Shown here: positions 13,206 to 64,000 of the stretch, piece by piece
Position numbering within the stretch: the stretch's first letter is position 1
How the letters are laid out: each line of letters starts with the position of its first letter
Source of the DNA: Siphonodentalium dalli
Taxonomy: Eukaryota; Mollusca; Scaphopoda; Gadilida; Siphonodentaliidae
NCBI GenBank assembly: GCA_032622095.1
Contig: CP136067.1
Location: 90,572,707-90,636,706 of the forward strand
Direction of reading: 5' to 3'
Length of the DNA stretch: 64,000 nucleotides
Translations under genes and position numbers: made by a program
The notes under the pieces: model-generated
Told to the model about the DNA's origin: nothing
Databases searched by the model: none
Seen by the model: only the letters and a program-made list of their open reading frames with translations

Positions 13206-13770
13206 CCATAATGAAAGCAGCCGAGTTTGGTGGGTTATCTGCCGAGTATGGTGGGCTATCAGCCGAGTGTGGTGCGTTATCAGCCGAATTTGGTGCGTTA
13301 TCAACCGAGATTGGTGCGTTTTCAGCCGAGTGTTGTACGTTATCAGCCGAGTTTAGTGGGTTATCAGCCGAGTTTGGTGGGTTATCAGCCGAGTGTGGTG
13401 CGTTATCAGCCGAGTTTTGTGCGTTATCAGTCGAATGTGTTATGTATAAGCCAAGTTTGGTGGGTTATCAGCCGAGTTCGATGGATTATCAGCCGAGTTT
13501 GGTGGGTTATTAGCCGAGTTTGGTGGGTTATCAGCCGAGTTAAGTGGGTTATCAGCCGAATTTGGAGCGTTTTCATCCGAGCTTGGTGTGTTATCAGCGA
13601 GTTTGGTGGGTTATCAGTCGAGTTAAGTGGGTTATCAGCGAGATTGGAGGGTGATCAGCCGAGTTTGGTGGGTTATCAGCGGAGTTTGCTGGGTTATCAG
13701 CCGTGTTGGGAGGGTTATCAGCCGAGTGTGGTGGGATAGCAGCCGAGTTTGAAGTTAGATCAGCTGAGAT
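13206..13770. repeat. 21-bp minisatellite (GCCGAGTTTGGTGGGTTATCA)-like
   Basis: About 26 imperfect copies of a 21-bp unit with core CCGAGTTTGGTGGGTTATC. Because 21 is a multiple of 3, frames remain open as heptapeptide repeats (AEFGGLS in one frame, YQPSLVG in another). Two overlapping frames being open equally well argues for a periodicity artefact, not a gene. Some units are shortened by 1 bp toward the right end. Confidence 0.85.
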
Positions 13771-14002: not shown

Positions 14003-14915
14003 TCACGTAATATCACGTAGGTTAGACGGCGACGGCACGTAATATCACGTAGGGTGGATGGCGACGGCACGTGATATCACGTAGGTTAGATGGCGACGGC
14101 ACGTATTATCACGTAGGGTAGATGGCGACGGCACGTAATATCACATAGGATAGATGGAGACGGCACGTAATATCACGTAGGTTAGACGGCGACGGCACGT
14201 AATATCACATATGTTAGGTGGCGACGGCACGTAATATCACGTAGGTTAGATGGCGACGGCACGTAATATCACGTAGGTTAGATGGCGACGGCACGTAATA
14301 TCACGTAGGTTAGACGGCGACGGCACGTAATATCACATATGTTAGATGGCGACGGCACGTAATATCACGTAGGTTAGATGGCGACGGCACGTAATATCAC
14401 GTATGTTAGATGGCGACGGTACGTAACATCACGTAGATTAGACGGCGACGGCACGTAATATCACATTATGTTAGATGGCGACGGCACGTAATATCACGTA
14501 GGTTAGATGGCGACGGCACGTAATATCACGTAGATTAGACGGCGGTGACACGTAATATCACGTAGGTTAGATGGCGACGGCACGTAATATCGCGTAGGTT
14601 ATATGTTGACGGCACGCAACATCACGTAGATTAAACGACGACGGCACGTACTATCACGTAGGTTAGACGGCGATGACACGTAGTGTCACGTGGGTTATAT
14701 GACGACGGCACGTAATATCACGTAGGTTACATGACGACGGTACGTAATATCACGTAGGTTAGATGGCGACGGCACTTAATATCACGTAGGTTAGACGGCG
14801 ACGACACGTAATATCACGTAGGTTAGATGGCCACAGCGCGTAATACACGTAGGTTAGACGGCGGATGACACGTATTATCACGTAGACTAGATGGCGACGG
14901 CACGTATATTATTAG
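14003..14915. repeat. 32-bp minisatellite, ~28 copies
   Basis: Unit built on GGCGACGGCACGTAATATCA plus CGTAGGTTAGAT. Each unit has CACGTA and TCACGTAG, an interrupted palindrome around ATAT, so the array is rich in E-box-like CACGTG/CACGTA words. Variants are 1-4 substitutions per unit. Confidence 0.85.
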
Positions 14916-37620: not shown

Positions 37621-38532
37621 GGAAACAATTGGCTGTCGCTTAACTAGCCATTAAGGTTCTCCTGCGAGGAACTTAATTGCCGTGACATACCTTCCAGACA
37701 GCAGCTCAACCGTGTTTGGAAAAATACCGTTTTGTTTTCAATTGTATTACGAATGACAATCACGGAAATGAAGTTTAATTGTAACTGGTAGACCAAGTCT
37801 TCTCGGTTCACTACAGCTTGGGAAATATGTTGAGTTGATGCTGTTTTTGGGCCGATTCCCGTCCAGTTACTCTTCTCTGAATTCACGTGAATCCGTGAAT
37901 GTGATTAATCATCTGACATATCCGAGATTGATCTGTCTTAAAATGATATACCATTTACCGTGATAGAGTAAGATAAAGTGATGATACGATCGTTTAATAT
38001 ATTGTTTACATGCACTTAAAGTTTTTGATAGCGTGACAAATCATAAATATCTGGAAAATAAGGCTTTGTTTCTTTGTATATCTTGTTGCTTTGACATTCA
38101 AAGAACCTCTAGTGTACGCATGTTTGATATCATCATGCTTGGGGAAGTCTGCCCTCTATTTATTTTACGCAAAGTGTCCATTTGACCTAATCGGAAGACA
38201 TACAAGCAAGAAAACTCCCGCCCACGATTCTGGGCGTAAAGTCTGTTATAGAAGAATAGCGGGATGGGACTCGGTCAAAAGCAGCATAAACCCAACCGAT
38301 ATCTCAAGCTGTCGTGGACAGAGATGACCGAAAAACTTGATCTATGTAACTGGGTGCGTAATTTTCGATTGTTTGTTACCAACATACAATTGTCGTTGCT
38401 TGTTGTATCAATTGTCTTCAAACTGTTTGCTTACAATTACATAAACTTATCAGAAACGAGAGTTATTTAGTGTCGCGAACTCACGTGACATTGGTCATCC
38501 CCCTATATCCATATACATGGGTCTTACATATA
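37621..38532. other. Intron sequence, no exon supported
   Basis: A minus-strand frame near 37691-37876 has a donor-like GGAAG/GTATGTC, but its phase does not fit the ZP gene (see rejected items). Otherwise nothing recognised. Confidence 0.5.
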
Positions 38533-41500
38533 GTTAGGGAGCCCGCATATGTTCCATTTACACTTTTGCGTACAAAAGGTTTGACCCCCTATAGTTGGTA
38601 CCAATAATGGAACATTCTGAAAAACCGATTTCTTAAGTTGCGCATTCCTGGGGTTTAGGGGCCACTGAACCCCAAAAAGTGCCAAAAATCACTTCTATTT
38701 ACACTTCCGCGTACATCGATGAATTTTGGTTTGATGATACTCCTAAATGTACTGATTAAGAAAACACAACTTAAGAAAGGGATTTTCCTGGGGTTTTCAG
38801 ATAAGAAAGGGGGTCCCATGCTGAACCCCCAAAACGTGATTTTTCACTTTTTTTTACACTTTCGCGTACATCCATAATTTTTGGTCTCAAAGTACTTTGA
38901 TATATACTAATTATAAAAACACAACTTAAGAAGCAACTTTTCCTGGGGTTTTAAGATAAGAAGGGGGTCATCGGGTCACCCCTCAAAACGTAAAAAATCA
39001 CTTTTATTTACATGATTGCATTCGTCCAACGTGTGTGTATGTGGGTACACCCCTGGAACGTTGCACTATTACATCCAATACATCCCTAAATCGATACGAT
39101 CAACTTAAGAAATATATATTCATGTCGTTTTCTGATAAGAACGAGACTTGTTACCCCCCCCCCACAACCGATCCATTTTCTAGAACTATAAGTGAGCCAG
39201 TTTTATGAAAATTATAGCGGGGAAAATCTGGTAAAATGTACACAAATGTATATATTTTCGTGAAGCTAAGACATAATGACACTTTTTTGGGCCAAAATTG
39301 AAACTCACCATCAACGATGGCCGACAAAATGACCACCAGAATTTGAAAATATGACATTTTTTCACAAATATCTTCTAGATCAATTCATGCTGTTTGGAAC
39401 TGGTTGAGTAATGCAACTTCATTTTGTGTTCTGTATATTAACTGATCATTGGAGCAATTAAATATGCAATTATTGGGGTCCCAACCCCTTCCAATCCCTT
39501 AAAAATTCGATTGTACAGAATGCGGTATAAAATTTCACAAAAAATCACAATTGGGATTCTAGTCATATTTCAACAAGAAATTAACAGAACTTTGTAATGT
39601 AAGTGAGGCATATCATTACCTATGAATATTCCAAATCACTGGAACAAATATTCTTACTTTGGCCCAAAATGGCTGCCAATATGGCCGCCAAAATATGGAA
39701 AATGGTAAATATTACACCAGCGTGTCCTGCAATCGCTTACAAGTTGTGTTGATGTATAAAATTGGCTATTCTGCATTCTATTCATTGAATACTAACATGT
39801 CTGATGCAACATGGTTAATTGTTACTATTTTCACCACTGACATCGTCAAAAATATTGGATTTTTCTCTCACAAACTTGACATAAATATTGACAAAAATTC
39901 AGTTTTCAGGTTTGGACCATTTTTTCAGGTAAAATATAACTATCTTTGGATTGAAAGGAGTTTATTGTTTTGGTCTATCTTAAATGTGTCACACTACGGT
40001 GTTTATAGACCAAATTGCTCAAGATGGCTTCCAAAATGGCAACCAAATTTGTAAAATGCTAATTTTTTATCCCGAACATTCTCTGCATTGTCCGAAAAGG
40101 TAGCAAATTGTGACTCACTTGGTTATTATACGTGTTAGTTAATTAACTGACAACTACATGTTCCATTCCCAGTTGTCCCAGTTCCGTTTGGTGCATGACA
40201 AATTCATTTTAATGTATGTAATTTTGCCGAGAACCTCTTTTGTGATTTTGGCCATATTTATTGAAAGGAAATGGGCAGAACTTTGAGACAGAACTGAGAT
40301 GGACCATAATCTTGGCTATTCTGGTCCATTATGATAAACAAATGTCAACAGGATACAGTGTGGATGCCAAGATCGTAGCCAGGGAGTTACTCTGTGATCA
40401 TATGTGAGGTGAATAGGTATACAGGGAGTTATTGTATGTCATGACTGATGTGAGTAGGTATACAAAGAGTGACTATATGGTTATGAATAGTTTGTCCATG
40501 GTAAGATGCATCTAGGTATACAGGGAGAAATCATGGTCAGATGTGAGGTGAATCGGTATGCATGGAGTGACTGTATGGTGTATGATTGTGTATATCCAGT
40601 ACGGGTGCACCACGTGTGCCTGTATGGTCATTGGTGTGGTGTATGGATATAGCTACATGGTCATCTATGTGTTGATTATGTATATATGGAGTGAATGTAA
40701 GGTCATGGGTGGGATGTACATGTGTTGTCTGTATGATCATAGATGGGGTGTGTGGATAAATAGGTAGTGATTTTATGGTTACGGGTAATGTGTGTAGGTA
40801 TACATGGAATGGCTGTACAGTCATGATTGAATATGAATACCTGGAGTAAGCTGGGTGGATATTGTCGAGCGTGTGGGTACATAGGGAGTATCCTTGTGGT
40901 AACGGGTGGGATGTATATTTATATATCTCGTGGATGTATTATCATTGGTGTGTGTATAGGGCTTAGCTGTATTATCATGGATGGCGTTTATGATTATACA
41001 GTGAATTGCTGAATTGTCATGTGAGAGGTGTATATGTAAGTATGGATTGTTTGAGTGGTCGTATGCGCGGTTTTTTGTATATTTGGAAGGGCTGAATGGC
41101 CATTAGTGAGGTTTACATGTATACCTGGAGTGAATCTATGGTCTAGGGTGGGCTGCATATGTGTATCGAGTGGTTATATGACTATGTGTGTCGAATAGGT
41201 ATACAGGTAGTGACTGTATGGTTAATGGTGATATGAGTACATGTAGGTATACAGGTAGTGACTGTATGAGCATAAATGTAATGATCATCTATACAGGGGG
41301 TGACAGGCGTATGAGTATACATGTACCTGGTGTTCATGTTTGGTGACTCGTGTCGGTATCGTCATGTGTAGGTTATACCATTATACACACGTGTTGCTTT
41401 ATTGTCATGGGCGAGGGATATGTGTATATAGCGAGTGGCTATATGGCCATGGGTGAGGTACATATGCATACATGGAGTGACTATACTGACATGGCTGGGA

Positions 41501-44500
41501 GTATTAGTATATCTTGAGTGGCTATTCGGCTATGGTGTGACAAATAGGGATCCAGGGATTGACATGGCCAATGTTGAGGTGAATATGTATACAAGGATTG
41601 ACCATGATTGTGTATGAATGTTTTGAATAGGTACACACGGGGTGACTATATGGCCATAGGTCAGGTGAAGGAGTATACCAGGTAACATGGGTGAGGGTAT
41701 GTGTATGACGCGAGTGGCTATATGGCCATTGGTGATGTGCATATGTATACCGGAGTGACTTTATGGTCATTGTTGTGGTGTTGATGTATATATTGATTGA
41801 CTATTTGACCATGCGTTTGGAGAATATGTAACAGGGGATGACCTTATGGCAAATGGTGAGATGAATGGGTATACAAGGAGTGACTATATGGTTATGGGTC
41901 ATGTTTAGGAGTATACCCGGTGTGCCTGCATTGTGACGCGTGGCTGTATGGTCATTCGTGGTCATGTGTCAGGTGTACATGTATACAGTGGGTCACTATA
42001 TGGTTATGTCTGTGGTGTTTATGTATATATGTAATGACTGTGTGATAATGGGTGGCTATCGCTTTCCACGATATGACATAACCTCTCTATTGATTAACAT
42101 ATCCTTGAGTTATTGTGGAAAGCGATAGCCACCCAAGGTACACATGTACAACCCACCCATTACCCCAATCACTCTATATGTACATAAACACCACACAAAT
42201 GACAACATAGTCACCCACTTTATACATGTACATGTACTAGTACACCTGATCATACAGCCATACTTATACAGCTTATACCACAAATGACGATACAGCCACG
42301 AGTCATCATGCATGAACACCAGGTATACACCTACACCCGACACATGACCATATAGTCACTCTATGTATACATATTCACTACATTCACGATAATACAGTCA
42401 CTCATTGTATACATATTCACCTCACCATGGACCATACAGCCACTACATGTATACCTATTCGCCATACCCATGACCATAGAGTCAAACCAGGTATACATAT
42501 GCACATCACCAATGGTGAGCCCTTCCAGATATACCAATATCCGCACATACGACCACTCATAAGTTCCATACTTGCCACACTCATACACGCCATCCATGAT
42601 AATAAATCTACTCCCCATACACCACCAATGATAACACATCCACAACATATATAAATATACGTCCCACCGTTACCAACAGGGCACTCCCTATATACCCACA
42701 CATCATTCGTGACCATACAATAACTCCCTGTATTATCTATTACCCTCATCTATGATCATAGAGTAACTCCCTGGCTGCCATATTGGCTTCCACCCTGTAT
42801 CCAGTTGATAAATTTTTATCATAATGGGCCAGAATACCCACATATCATGGTTCAGCTCAGTTCCGTCTCAAAGTTCTGCCCATTTCCTTTCAATAATATG
42901 GCCAGAATCACAAAAGAGGTTCTCCGCAAAATTCCATACTGCAACTTTAATATTAATTTGTCATGCCCCATACGGAACTGGGACAAACATAATAGAACGT
43001 AGTTGTCAGTTAATTACATTGTAACTAACACGTACAATAACCAAGTGAGTCACAATTTGCCACCTTTTTCGGATAACGCAGAGAATAATGTTCGGGATAT
43101 GTTAACTTTTAACTTTTTACAAATTTGGTTGCCATTTTGGAAGCCACCTTGAGCAATTTAGTCTACAAACACCGTAGTGTGACACATTTAAGATAGACCA
43201 AAACAATAAACACCTTACAATCCAAAGATAGTTACATTTTACTTGAACAAATGGTCGAACCCTGAAAAGTTATTTTTTGCCGATATTTATGTCAAGTTTG
43301 TGAGAGAAAATTCCAATATTTCTGGTGATGTCAGTGGTGACAATAGTAAAAATGATTCATGGTGCATCAGACATATTAGTATGCAATGTATAGAAAACAG
43401 ATTAGCCAATAATTGTGTACATCAACCACAACTTGTAAGCGGTTGCAGGACACCCTGGGGCAATATTTACCATTTTCCATATTTTGGCGGCCATTTTCGC
43501 AGCCATTTTGAGCCAAGGTAAGATTTATGGTTCCAGATATTTGGAATATTCATAGGTAATGATATGCCTCACTTACATTACAATGTTCTTTTCATTTCTT
43601 GTTGAAATATGACTAGAATCCCAATTGTGATTTTTTGTAAAATTTTGTAATGCGTTCTGTAAAATCGAATTTTTAAGGGATCGGAAGGGGTTAGGACCCC
43701 AATACTTGCATATTTAATTGCTCCAATGATCAGTTAATATACAAAAACACAATATAACGTTACATTACTCAACCAGTTCCAAACAGCATGAATTGATCTA
43801 GAAGATATTTGTGAAAAAATGTCATATTTTCAACTTCCGACGGCCATTTTGGCGGCCATCTTGGATGGTGAGTTTCAATTTTGGCCCAAAAAAGTGTCAT
43901 TATGTCTTAGCTTCACGAAAATATATACATTGGTATACATTTTACTAGATTTTCCCGCTATAATTTTCATAAAACTGACTCACTTATAGTTCTAGAAAAT
44001 GGATCGGGTTGTGGGGGGGGGGGGGGGGGGGGGGGGGTAAAGTCTCGTTCTTCAGAAAACGACATGAATATATATTTCTTAAGTTGATCGTATCGATTTA
44101 GGGATGTATTGGTTGTAATAGTGCAACGTTCCAGGGGTGTGCGCACATACACACACGTTGGACGAATGCAATCATGTAAATAAAAGTGATTTTTTACGTT
44201 TTGAGTGGTGACCCGATGACCCCCTTCTTATCTTAAAACCCCAGGAAAAGTTGCTTCTTAAGTTGTGTTTTTATAATTAGTATATATCAAAGTACTTTGA
44301 GACCAAAAATTATGGATGTACGCGAAAGTGTAAAAAAAAGTGAAAAATCACGTTTTGGGGTTCAGCATGGGACCCCCTTTCTTATCTGAAAACCCCAGGA
44401 AAATCCCTTTCTTAAGTTGTGTTTTCTTAATCAGTACACTTAGGAGTATCATCAAACCAAAATTCATCGATGTACGCGGAAGTGTAAATAGAAGTGATTT

Positions 44501-44653
44501 TTGGCACTTTTTGGGGTTCAGTGGCCCCTAAACCCCAGGAATGCGCAACTTAAGAAATCGGTTTTTCAGAATGTTCCATTATTGGTACCAACTTTAGGGG
44601 GTCAAACCTTTTGTACGCAAAAGTGTAAATGGAACATATGCGGGCTCCCTAAC
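38533..44653. mobile_element. 6.1-kb giant palindrome (foldback element), TA-flanked
   Basis: Ends GTTAGGGAGCCCGC and its reverse complement, each followed outward by TA. Left arm 38533-42069 and right arm 42115-44653 meet around a 45-bp spacer, with GGGTGGCTATCGCTTTCCAC and its exact inverse on either side. In the outer 300 bp I count about three differences between arms (about 99% identity). The outer ~1.9 kb of each arm is unique text with AAATGGC.GCCA words; the inner part is a degenerate minisatellite that is longer on the left, which explains the unequal arms. No frame resembles a transposase. A G-run (44010-44038) marks the right arm. Confidence 0.9.
40400..42750. repeat. Degenerate 40-60-bp minisatellite inside the palindrome
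   Basis: Imperfect units of the form GTATACATGGAGTGACTATA, TGGTCATGGGTGAGGTG, reading forward from 40400 to 42050 and reverse-complemented from 42120 to 42750. Unit length varies from about 41 to 60 bp. Long open frames here follow the repeat on both strands and are not genes. Confidence 0.75.
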
Positions 44654-44655
44654 TA

Positions 44656-45143
44656 ATAACTCTAATTCGCGTCTACGCGTATGCTTTATGCTGTCATCGT
44701 ACGTAAGACCGTCTACGCAGCTTAACGCAGGCAATTTACATACGTGTATAAAACGTCATCCCAACTCACCAATTAGAGCCATATAATTGGCCGAGACCCA
44801 ACACGATAGACAGAAGCTATTGGAATGTTTAGCAGGAGAATGTACGCTAATTTTATGTAAAAGACGAATTCAAATTAATTGGCGGACAGTGGATTGGGCA
44901 ACGTGTGCCGCACATCGTGTACAAACTTATATTGAATTATAATATAATATTTATTTGATACATCTGCCTGAAAACTGTACAAAATTATATCGATGACGAG
45001 CGAGCTATTGTTGCATTCCGGCTTATCTGTCATCTGTGACATTACTTCATACTCAGCAGACAATCAAAGGACATATATGGTTTCCTTATTCTACTAAGCA
45101 GAGAATATATGAACCAACAACAGTATTTGAGTACAGTACCCCT
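44656..45143. other. Intron sequence, nothing recognised
   Basis: AT-rich intron between the giant palindrome and the next MITE. No exon or repeat seen. Confidence 0.5.
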
Positions 45144-57696: not shown

Positions 57697-58429
57697 TGTG
57701 TGAACTTCGTGTGGAGGGGGTCGTGTATGTGAACATGAGGTGCATAACTTGTTTGTATAAATATGTAAGTCGCGTTTCTGCACATTGTGTTCGGGCATAT
57801 CCGACTGTCTGTCCACGGAGCAACCGTGCTGACCTTGGCATATTAATGGACTTTATACTGATTGTACTTATATGTACTAATTGTATTTAGATGATTGATA
57901 TGCACTAGCATGCAGTATAACAATGATCCTAATATATACGTATCTTCATGCATCATCTCTCCTGAGTGCCGAGACGTATTTGAGGTCTAATTCCGTTTCT
58001 ATATTGGACATGATACCATGATTTAAAACCTTAATGTAAAATTTTGATTATGACTGAGGTATTGTTGTATACACCATTAATCACACTTCTTTCCAACCTA
58101 CTTCATTATCTTTCCTGCGTATTTCATTATCTTCTCCCTTCTATCACTCCTCCATCTTTCTTATCCCTGCAATCGCTTAACTAACTTCCCAACATTTATT
58201 TGAAAACACAGAACAATATTCAAATTCCCGTCCTCTTTACCCTGTAGCTGTCTGTATTAACACTCGGGGTAACATTTCTAGAGGAAAGGATTTTTATAAA
58301 AGCCGTAGGCTCATGGCTTGTTATCAATCCTCATTTGAACTATGATTTTTTCTATATGTATAATTGTCAATGCGATGTTCTGTTCTTTCGTTCAAATAAA
58401 CATTGTTTTTTACAGTATTTCTATAACAT

Positions 58430-59086
58430 CTGTTGATGTTTACAAGGCTCTAAAATCTCCGAAGGTCTCAAAATCATGTGGTCCTGATAAAATAAGTCCT
58501 AGACCACTGAAGCATTATGCATCATATTTATGTGAACCACTTGCGTCTTATTTCAAATTATTTGTTGAAAACAATCATTATCCGCACCAATGGAAGATAT
58601 CTAATGTGACCCCGATTTTGAAAGCAGGTTACCCCAGTATTATTACTAACTATCGTCCAGTCTCCCTACTTAGTTGTGTATCAAAGGTGTTTGAGAAGTG
58701 TATATATAAATATATCTGTGAATTTCTGGAAGACAATAAACTACTATCAATTTATCAATCTGGATTTGTGAAAGGTGACTCAACTGTTTTTCAACTGACA
58801 TAAATATACGACAACATATGCAGGTCCCTAGATGATGGAAAATAATTAAGATGTGTTTTCTGTGACGTTAGTAAAGCGTTCGATAAGGTATGGCACCGCG
58901 GACTACTTCACAAAACTAATGAAGATAGGAATTACAGGGGATTTACATAAACTGATTGAATCATATCTTGAATACCGACAACAGCGTGTTATTATCGATG
59001 GATCAAGTTCTCAGCTGCAGTATGTTTCTGCGGCAGTTCCTCGAGGTTATATCCTAGGTCCTTTTTTTCTTGATCTAAATAAATAA
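58430..59086 (+). mobile_element. LINE reverse-transcriptase fragment
   Basis: Residues KSPKVSKSCGPDKISPRPL, NYRPVSLLSCVSKVFEK and QSGFVKGDSTVFQLT are RT motifs 0-2a of CR1/Jockey-group LINEs. After a stop and frame change at 58800-58855 come VFCDVSKAFDKVWHRGLL, GITGDLHKLIESYLEYRQQR and VPRGYILGPFF. DVSKAFD holds the first catalytic Asp. The copy ends before the second catalytic motif ([FY]ADD), so it cannot be active. It lies downstream of the C-terminal fragment at 57270-57696 on the same strand, the wrong order for one intact element. Confidence 0.92.
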
Positions 59087-63800: not shown

Positions 63801-64000
63801 CTGCGTAGGGGATGTTATGTATATAGACGTACTGCGTTAGATGTCATACTGATACCACAGTTAGACCCTCCTGCGTAGGGGATGCTATGTATATAGACGT
63901 ACTGCGTTAGATGTCATACTGATACCACCGTTAGACCCTCCTGCGTAGGGGATGTTATGTATATAGACGTACTGCGTTAGATGTGATACTGATACCACAG
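60893..64000. repeat. 70-bp satellite with ~701-bp higher-order period
   Basis: About 44 units of 70 bp: ATACTGATACCACAGTTAGA, CCCGCCTGCGTAGGGGATGT, TATGTATATAGACGTACTGC, GTTAGATGTC. Units differ by a few bases and fall into discrete types (CGCCTGCG, CTCCTGCG, CGACAGCG). A 60-bp foreign spacer (TGTGCCCCAATCCCAATTGT, ACATAAACGATACAATAAAG, TATGTTTAAAC) recurs at about 61201, 61903 and 63305, i.e. spaced 702 and 1,402 bp. The array runs off the window. Confidence 0.95.

Follow-up and report, generated by a model that had tools for sequence, protein, structure and literature searches.

What is the long inverted structure carried by this 64,000-nt stretch of the Siphonodentalium dalli genome, and does it represent a mobile element or an accident of this one locus? 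The stretch is referred to here as the window, and coordinates are window positions unless a contig is named; the genome comprises 2.2 Gb in 9 contigs. An initial annotation had described a near-perfect 6.1-kb palindrome lying in an intron of a ZP host gene. We find that the 6.1-kb object is a real transposon from a mobile family that is widespread in the genome, and not an artefact. It is very probably one copy of a non-autonomous foldback DNA transposon (terminal inverted repeat (TIR) order) that is moved in trans by a transposase producing 3-bp target duplications. The proposed host gene was not borne out, as a genome search with the ZP family PF00100 (E<=10) gave 23 matches, none of them inside the window.

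The element spans 38531-44655 (6125 bp) and has two inverted ends, TAGTTAGGGAGCCC; its left terminus, TAGTTAGGGAGCCCGCATATG, occupies 38531-38551 on the + strand. The left arm (38531-40471, +) and the right arm (42682-44655, -) are colinear. The inverted arms lie where they had been annotated, with outer blocks that are 96% (38531-38854/44332-44655) and 99% (38827-39135/44052-44360) complementary, and the main arm blocks farther in are 89-93% alike. With gaps counted, the arms are 90.4% alike over the outer ~1.95 kb and then ~70% in the aligned part of the minisatellite. The center of symmetry is a perfect 20-nt inverted pair, the core (42050-42069, +, and 42115-42134, -), around a 45-bp spacer (42070-42114), whose length had been given correctly. 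On the left, the core is preceded by a minisatellite with a unit of ~42 bp (40395-42044, +), in which copies are 61-84% like the reference copy; on the right it is followed by a shorter one (42153-42740, -, limits approximate). The two halves are unequal, measuring 3539 bp (left) and 2541 bp (right). The structure is therefore a foldback with a strong gradient of likeness, not a near-perfect 6.1-kb palindrome, and the earlier description applies only to the outer 0.6 kb of the arms. The annotation's broader suggestion, that this is a foldback-like mobile element of giant size containing a minisatellite, is supported: long inverted repeats make up most of the element, internal repeats are present, and inverted ends with a target duplication are found in many copies.

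The outer ~440 bp of each arm (38531-38970, +, and 44216-44655, -) contain three tandem modules (TTTACACTT, GCGTACA, CTTAAG, CCTGGGGTTT), 138-141 and 155 bp apart, with CTTAAG at arm positions 102, 240 and 395. These modules are likely to be a transposase-binding zone, a prediction made because the long TIRs of Galileo hold repeated transposase-binding sites, according to the sections of that work considered here (PMC3688188). CTTAAG occurs 8 times in the element and not at all in the other ~57.9 kb of the window, where ~19 are expected from base composition; the 74.6 kb flanking other copies contain 11.

The annotation had proposed searching the genome for further copies, and the sequence proved not to be unique to the window. 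The terminal 19-mer, which is the left terminus without its first TA, has 544 + 609 = 1153 genome matches with up to one mismatch, and the reversed control has 0 and 0. When the left arm was compared with its own genome, 38 of the best 40 matches (those scored among 5633 candidates) began within 5 bases of the outer end. Twenty loci, numbered with the prefix L, were fetched from these 40 as being among the best matches, and both ends were present in 19 of them. The window copy and these 19 make up the 20 complete copies used for the full comparison, which are 5776-6135 bp long (GTTA to TAAC) with pairwise identities of 97.5-99.5%. A less biased probe was applied to contig 1, using 16 unpaired exact ends (probed 1 kb inside) and 4 pairs of odd length (probed in the middle), and 19 of the 20 matched the family.

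Several variant forms were also seen. One, of 683 bp, is a deletion derivative that retains ~600 bp from one arm and 91 bp from the opposite arm; two others, of 1948 bp and 7.0 kb, hold unmatched inserts. At L059 (G000:C1:81968500-81968800), the probe ~1 kb inside an exact family end is a different tandem repeat, AGCTGATATACGTCATCGGA-like; this locus may be a truncated or short derivative of the family. A pair of ends 12.3 kb apart on contig 2 was considered as an autonomous copy and rejected, since it consists of two neighboring copies. At L031 and L041 (G000:C2:21895381-21907708), an older and a younger copy lie ~1 kb apart.

TA flanks both sides of all 20 complete copies, in agreement with the annotation. 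Immediately outside the TA, an identical triplet is found on both sides in 17 of 20 copies (ATA, TTA, TAT, TGG, GTG, GTA, ATG, AAT, TTT); in the window, this is ATA at 38528-38530 and 44656-44658. Triplets taken from different copies agree in 46 of 380 comparisons, and 17 agreements were reached in 0 of 100,000 permutations. The next triplet outward agrees in 1 of 20 copies. Six further copies added five matching triplets, L029 being the exception, for a total of 22 of 26. No direct repeat of 7-10 bp was found in the 20 copies at any of four offsets. Uninterrupted relatives of the repeats into which copies had inserted were used as empty sites. For L018, the empty ACGTTATGA compared with the filled ACGTTA[TA..TA]TTATGA fits a TTA duplication in length, with a left-side match that rests on 18 bases and one differing base slightly to the right; the empty copies are missing one TTA and both TAs. 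For L023, GTG fits except for one G in a variable G run. The duplicated triplet and the empty sites together indicate that the inverted repeat includes TA as its tip. The annotation's interpretation of TA as the target site is thus replaced by a 3-bp duplication outside it, and a TA adjoining a palindrome is no proof of a TA target site.

Differences between the arms were used to ask how old the palindrome is. The arm-to-arm identity profile is much alike within every compared copy, and 97 sites distinguish left from right arms across the 20 copies. In a tree of the inner arms (positions ~600-1840), one branch separates the 20 left arms from the 20 right arms with support of 100/100, in all 200 bootstrap trees. 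Because the inner arms split by side, the palindrome predates the sampled spread. This shows that the inverted duplication and its left/right differences existed in the ancestor of the 20 copies and were inherited with each copy.

Exchange between arms did leave traces. Among 3862 cells, 59 had switched to the other arm's type. Three of the 40 arms have runs of at least three such sites, and these runs all fall between positions 449 and 804: 16 consecutive sites in L025 (449-804), three in L014 (449-514) and four in L016 (631-635), the last with single switched sites at 449, 512 and 712. Neither the number nor the length of these runs was matched in any of 2000 shuffles. Of 108 singletons in left arms and 118 in right arms, five are private variants common to both arms of one copy, at 532 and 549 (L014), 780 (L025), 972 (L012) and 1015 (L020). 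Within-copy mismatch between left and right arms is below between-copy mismatch in 9 of 13 intervals along the arm, by 0.0002-0.0028 and never by more than 0.003. Arm-to-arm conversion occurs only occasionally. Four older copies have arms of mostly a single type up to position 899; two of the four are still alike at 961, and all are split from 981 on. Mismatch between the arms of these copies at 600-900 is 2.0-4.5% in three and 6.9% in the fourth (L037/L038). Likeness in these older copies thus extends deeper, owing either to exchange at an earlier time or to the ends having originated together. Compared with the window, older arms diverge by 1-5% in their outermost 450 bp and by 4-7% at 450-900, and like arms at 900-1880 differ by 3-6%. 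The annotation had offered a choice between a very young object and arms kept alike by conversion. Neither alternative fits in that form: the compared copies are recent, at 97.5-99.5% identity, but their arms diverged before the spread, and conversion-like runs are confined to the three arms above.

The core is more abundant than the window family's ends. Its 20-mer has 2583 + 2599 = 5182 genome matches with up to two mismatches (control 0), or about 2,600 centers if every core 20-mer is one arm of a pair. In 12 of 12 further centers that were fetched, the same minisatellite lies on both sides, colinear with the window; the spacer is 89-94 bp in 10 of them, 53 bp in one and 45 bp in one. In two centers traced outward, similarity to the window arm covers positions 663-852 and 663-789, and farther out the arms switch to a different outer piece of ~160 and ~185 bp, respectively, ending TAGTCCGGGAGCC. 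The switch point lies at approximately 43982 (-) in the window's right arm, with its left-arm counterpart at approximately 39195 (+), as matches stop at arm position 663-665. These sister arms resemble the window's right arm more than its left (95.2 vs 90.5%; 92.1 vs 88.2%), a preference that is less clear against the right and left arms of all 20 copies (94.2 vs 92.4%; 90.8 vs 88.9%). The sister end, TAGTCCGGGAGC, is related to the window end and has 269 + 329 genome matches with up to one mismatch (control 1 and 0).

Among 100 core matches listed for contig 1, a listed window-type end lies within 4.5 kb of 27, a sister end near 14, both near 0 and neither near 59. Further end types or decayed ends are therefore likely. 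Conversely, no listed core lies near 35 of the 48 sister ends. In what is presumably a single element, the right arm (L075) bears the sister end and the left arm (L078) is left-type, being 93.2% like the 20 left arms and 85.2% like the right arms over only 76 bp before an unmatched insert begins. In another element, the sister 18-mer lies 3050 bp from the core, roughly the distance expected for a left end. Two loci aimed at the other ends (L077 and L079) gave no match to the element, and no pair with the sister end on both arms of one element was found among the best 40 of 1786 candidates. A search for ends sharing TAGTTAGGGAGC and then diverging gave 0 matches; another gave 1, equal to the 1 of its control. 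At least two families share the interior and core but bear different, related ends, TAGTTAGGGAGCC and TAGTCCGGGAGC. Since the sister arms keep their left or right likeness, the palindromic interior, together with its left/right differences, appears to predate the divergence of the ends. A tentative explanation, which we consider possible but on balance doubtful, is that the palindromic interior acts as a carrier whose ends can be exchanged, one arm capturing an end that conversion then copies to the other. If ends are swapped in this way, conversion could run inward from the tip past the ~665-bp join to ~900-960 bp, where older window-type copies cease being alike.

Which transposase might move the element? 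Its longest stop-to-stop frame is 142 amino acids, and a Pfam scan of 4 of its 13 listed frames gave one match, below the cut-off, and no family above it, in line with the annotation's statement that no transposase is inside. PIF/Harbinger elements make a 3-bp duplication at a TWA target, and CACTA/EnSpm elements make a 3-bp duplication and have ends that begin CACT. The window element shares the duplication length with both. TTA or TAA is the triplet in only 4 of the 22 matching copies, however, which does not fit a TWA target, and the ends begin TAGTTAGGG, not CACT. Autonomous AcademX copies carry a nuclease gene, and Zator has an ISAzo13-type transposase. The genome contains Harbinger transposases (PF13359, DDE_Tnp_4; best 150 of 910 candidates scored), 78 matches to the CACTA transposase (PF02992) and 7 to XPG_I, the domain sought for AcademX. 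The Zator-type PF07592 gave 0 genome matches, and no control genome matched it either. Element ends were not found in the four Harbinger loci inspected (4/4). Twelve CACTA-type matches on contigs 1-6 lie in open frames of 909 amino acids (e.g. G000 C6:1785449-1786018); 10 share one score, and this group is probably a recent family.

The closest known systems are described here from portions of the cited papers. Tetris, a foldback of Drosophila virilis, is non-autonomous; its TIRs, up to 1735 bp long, have an outer domain and contain tandem repeats, a partner that is autonomous was not found, and it has a short relative, DAIBAM (PMC4079207). Its duplications are 8-9 bp in three structurally complete copies and 9-10 bp in rearranged ones, and the same paper considers most foldbacks to be apparent relatives of Mutator (PMC4079207). 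The window element is likewise non-autonomous with long TIRs and internal tandem repeats, but it differs in its 3-bp duplication, in having many more ends and in being inverted down to a 45-bp spacer. Galileo, of the P superfamily, has very long TIRs (1575/1608 bp, 97.5% alike in one copy), 7-8 bp duplications and a known putative P-type transposase, and the transfer of an inserted sequence to the other TIR is mentioned once (PMC4168063, PMC3688188). Very long TIRs with repeated modules, to which a binding role is assigned here by prediction, are common to both; the duplication length is not. Tm1, a Mutator/Foldback family of root-knot nematodes, has composite foldback-like TIRs that average 93% alike within an element, hairpin-bearing members and members resembling miniature inverted-repeat transposable elements, low copy number, and members with a putative transposase (PMC3169594). 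Foldback-like TIRs are found in both, but Tm1 duplications are mostly 9 bp (PMC3169594). The window element shows neither the 8-10 bp duplication of Mutator nor the 7-8 bp of the P superfamily. Its duplication agrees in length with those given for AcademX (3-4 bp) and Zator (3 bp) (PMC10045372). Among the open-access titles and abstract openings consulted, no foldback element with a 3-bp duplication was found. With 3 bp here compared to 7-10 bp in Tetris, Galileo and Tm1, which are placed in Mutator or P, a further transposase seems to have given rise to elements of foldback form.

Other explanations for the locus have to be weighed against a foldback moved in trans. Large palindromes can be assembled wrongly, and an assembly error or one-off inverted duplication would account for a single such object. 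However, the 19 other complete copies have the same structure and the same left/right differences, and together with 1153 terminal matches against 0 in the control they exclude chance and misassembly; this explanation is almost certainly wrong. A Tc1/mariner-type element with a TA target duplication would explain the TA on both sides of every complete copy, but it does not account for the variable triplet duplicated outside the TA or for the empty copies matching L018, in which both TAs are missing, and we consider it very unlikely. It is just as hard to credit that the core is an independent small mobile element inserted at the center. The core is indeed commoner than the family's ends (5182 vs 1153 matches), but the same colinear minisatellite lies on both sides in all 12 centers. 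More can be said for a young palindrome in which continual gene conversion within each copy maintains the likeness of the arms. The outer 0.6 kb is 94-100% alike within copies, the three arms with conversion-like runs and the five shared private variants agree with such a process, older copies are alike to ~900-960, and within-copy mismatch is slightly lower in 9 of 13 intervals. Nevertheless, the inner arms group by side and not by copy, which refutes this explanation for them (the outer 450 bp hold too few diagnostic sites to decide), the markers at 4, 60, 81, 176 and 224 vary in left arms only, and the within-copy advantage is tiny. Continual conversion is therefore improbable, though less so than the other alternatives.

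The foldback reading also has observations that weigh against it. L015 shows no second end in its 10-kb stretch, and L011, L017, L019 and L029 have no matching triplet. The 20 main copies are best matches to the window's left arm among 5633 candidates, a sample that favors the window's subfamily. Selection on the predicted binding sites would explain the likeness of the outer zone equally well, without conversion, and the closely spaced L016 sites at 631-635 may be one event. Finally, the searches tied no transposase to the ends. The 100 exact ends listed cover contig 1 (81 ends) and the first 84 Mb of contig 2 (19 ends). This stretch holds 20 Harbinger and 14 CACTA matches, the nearest of them 31 kb from a listed end and so beyond the 10-kb limit applied, and it has no XPG_I match.

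Under the foldback reading, a transposase made elsewhere would bind the repeated modules of the outer ~440 bp, cut at the TA-tipped inverted repeat and insert the element with a 3-bp stagger. The palindrome may have originated by inverted duplication of one transposon end and its minisatellite around a short core repeat, which would have given an element with two equivalent ends. These ends might be kept alike because both are needed for transposition, and break repair at the ends may sometimes copy one arm onto the other.

Elsewhere in the window, a tandem array of ~44 copies of a 70-bp unit runs from 60892 to the window end at 64000, and two neighboring minisatellites with 21-bp and 32-bp units lie at 13218-13751 and 14004-14906. 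A reverse-transcriptase-like fragment is found at 58339-58800 (+), with a PF00078 match (E=2.2e-4) below the family cut-off.

The element is ordinary in kind and unusual in its size, its number, its duplication length and its possession of one interior common to different ends. Its copies could each feed long hairpins in DNA or RNA. The family supplies long palindromes in large number whose left/right markers are fixed, so that the rate of arm exchange is measurable, something that is hard to achieve with single palindromes. If ends are indeed swapped, a palindrome could come to use another transposase and repair its second end on its own.

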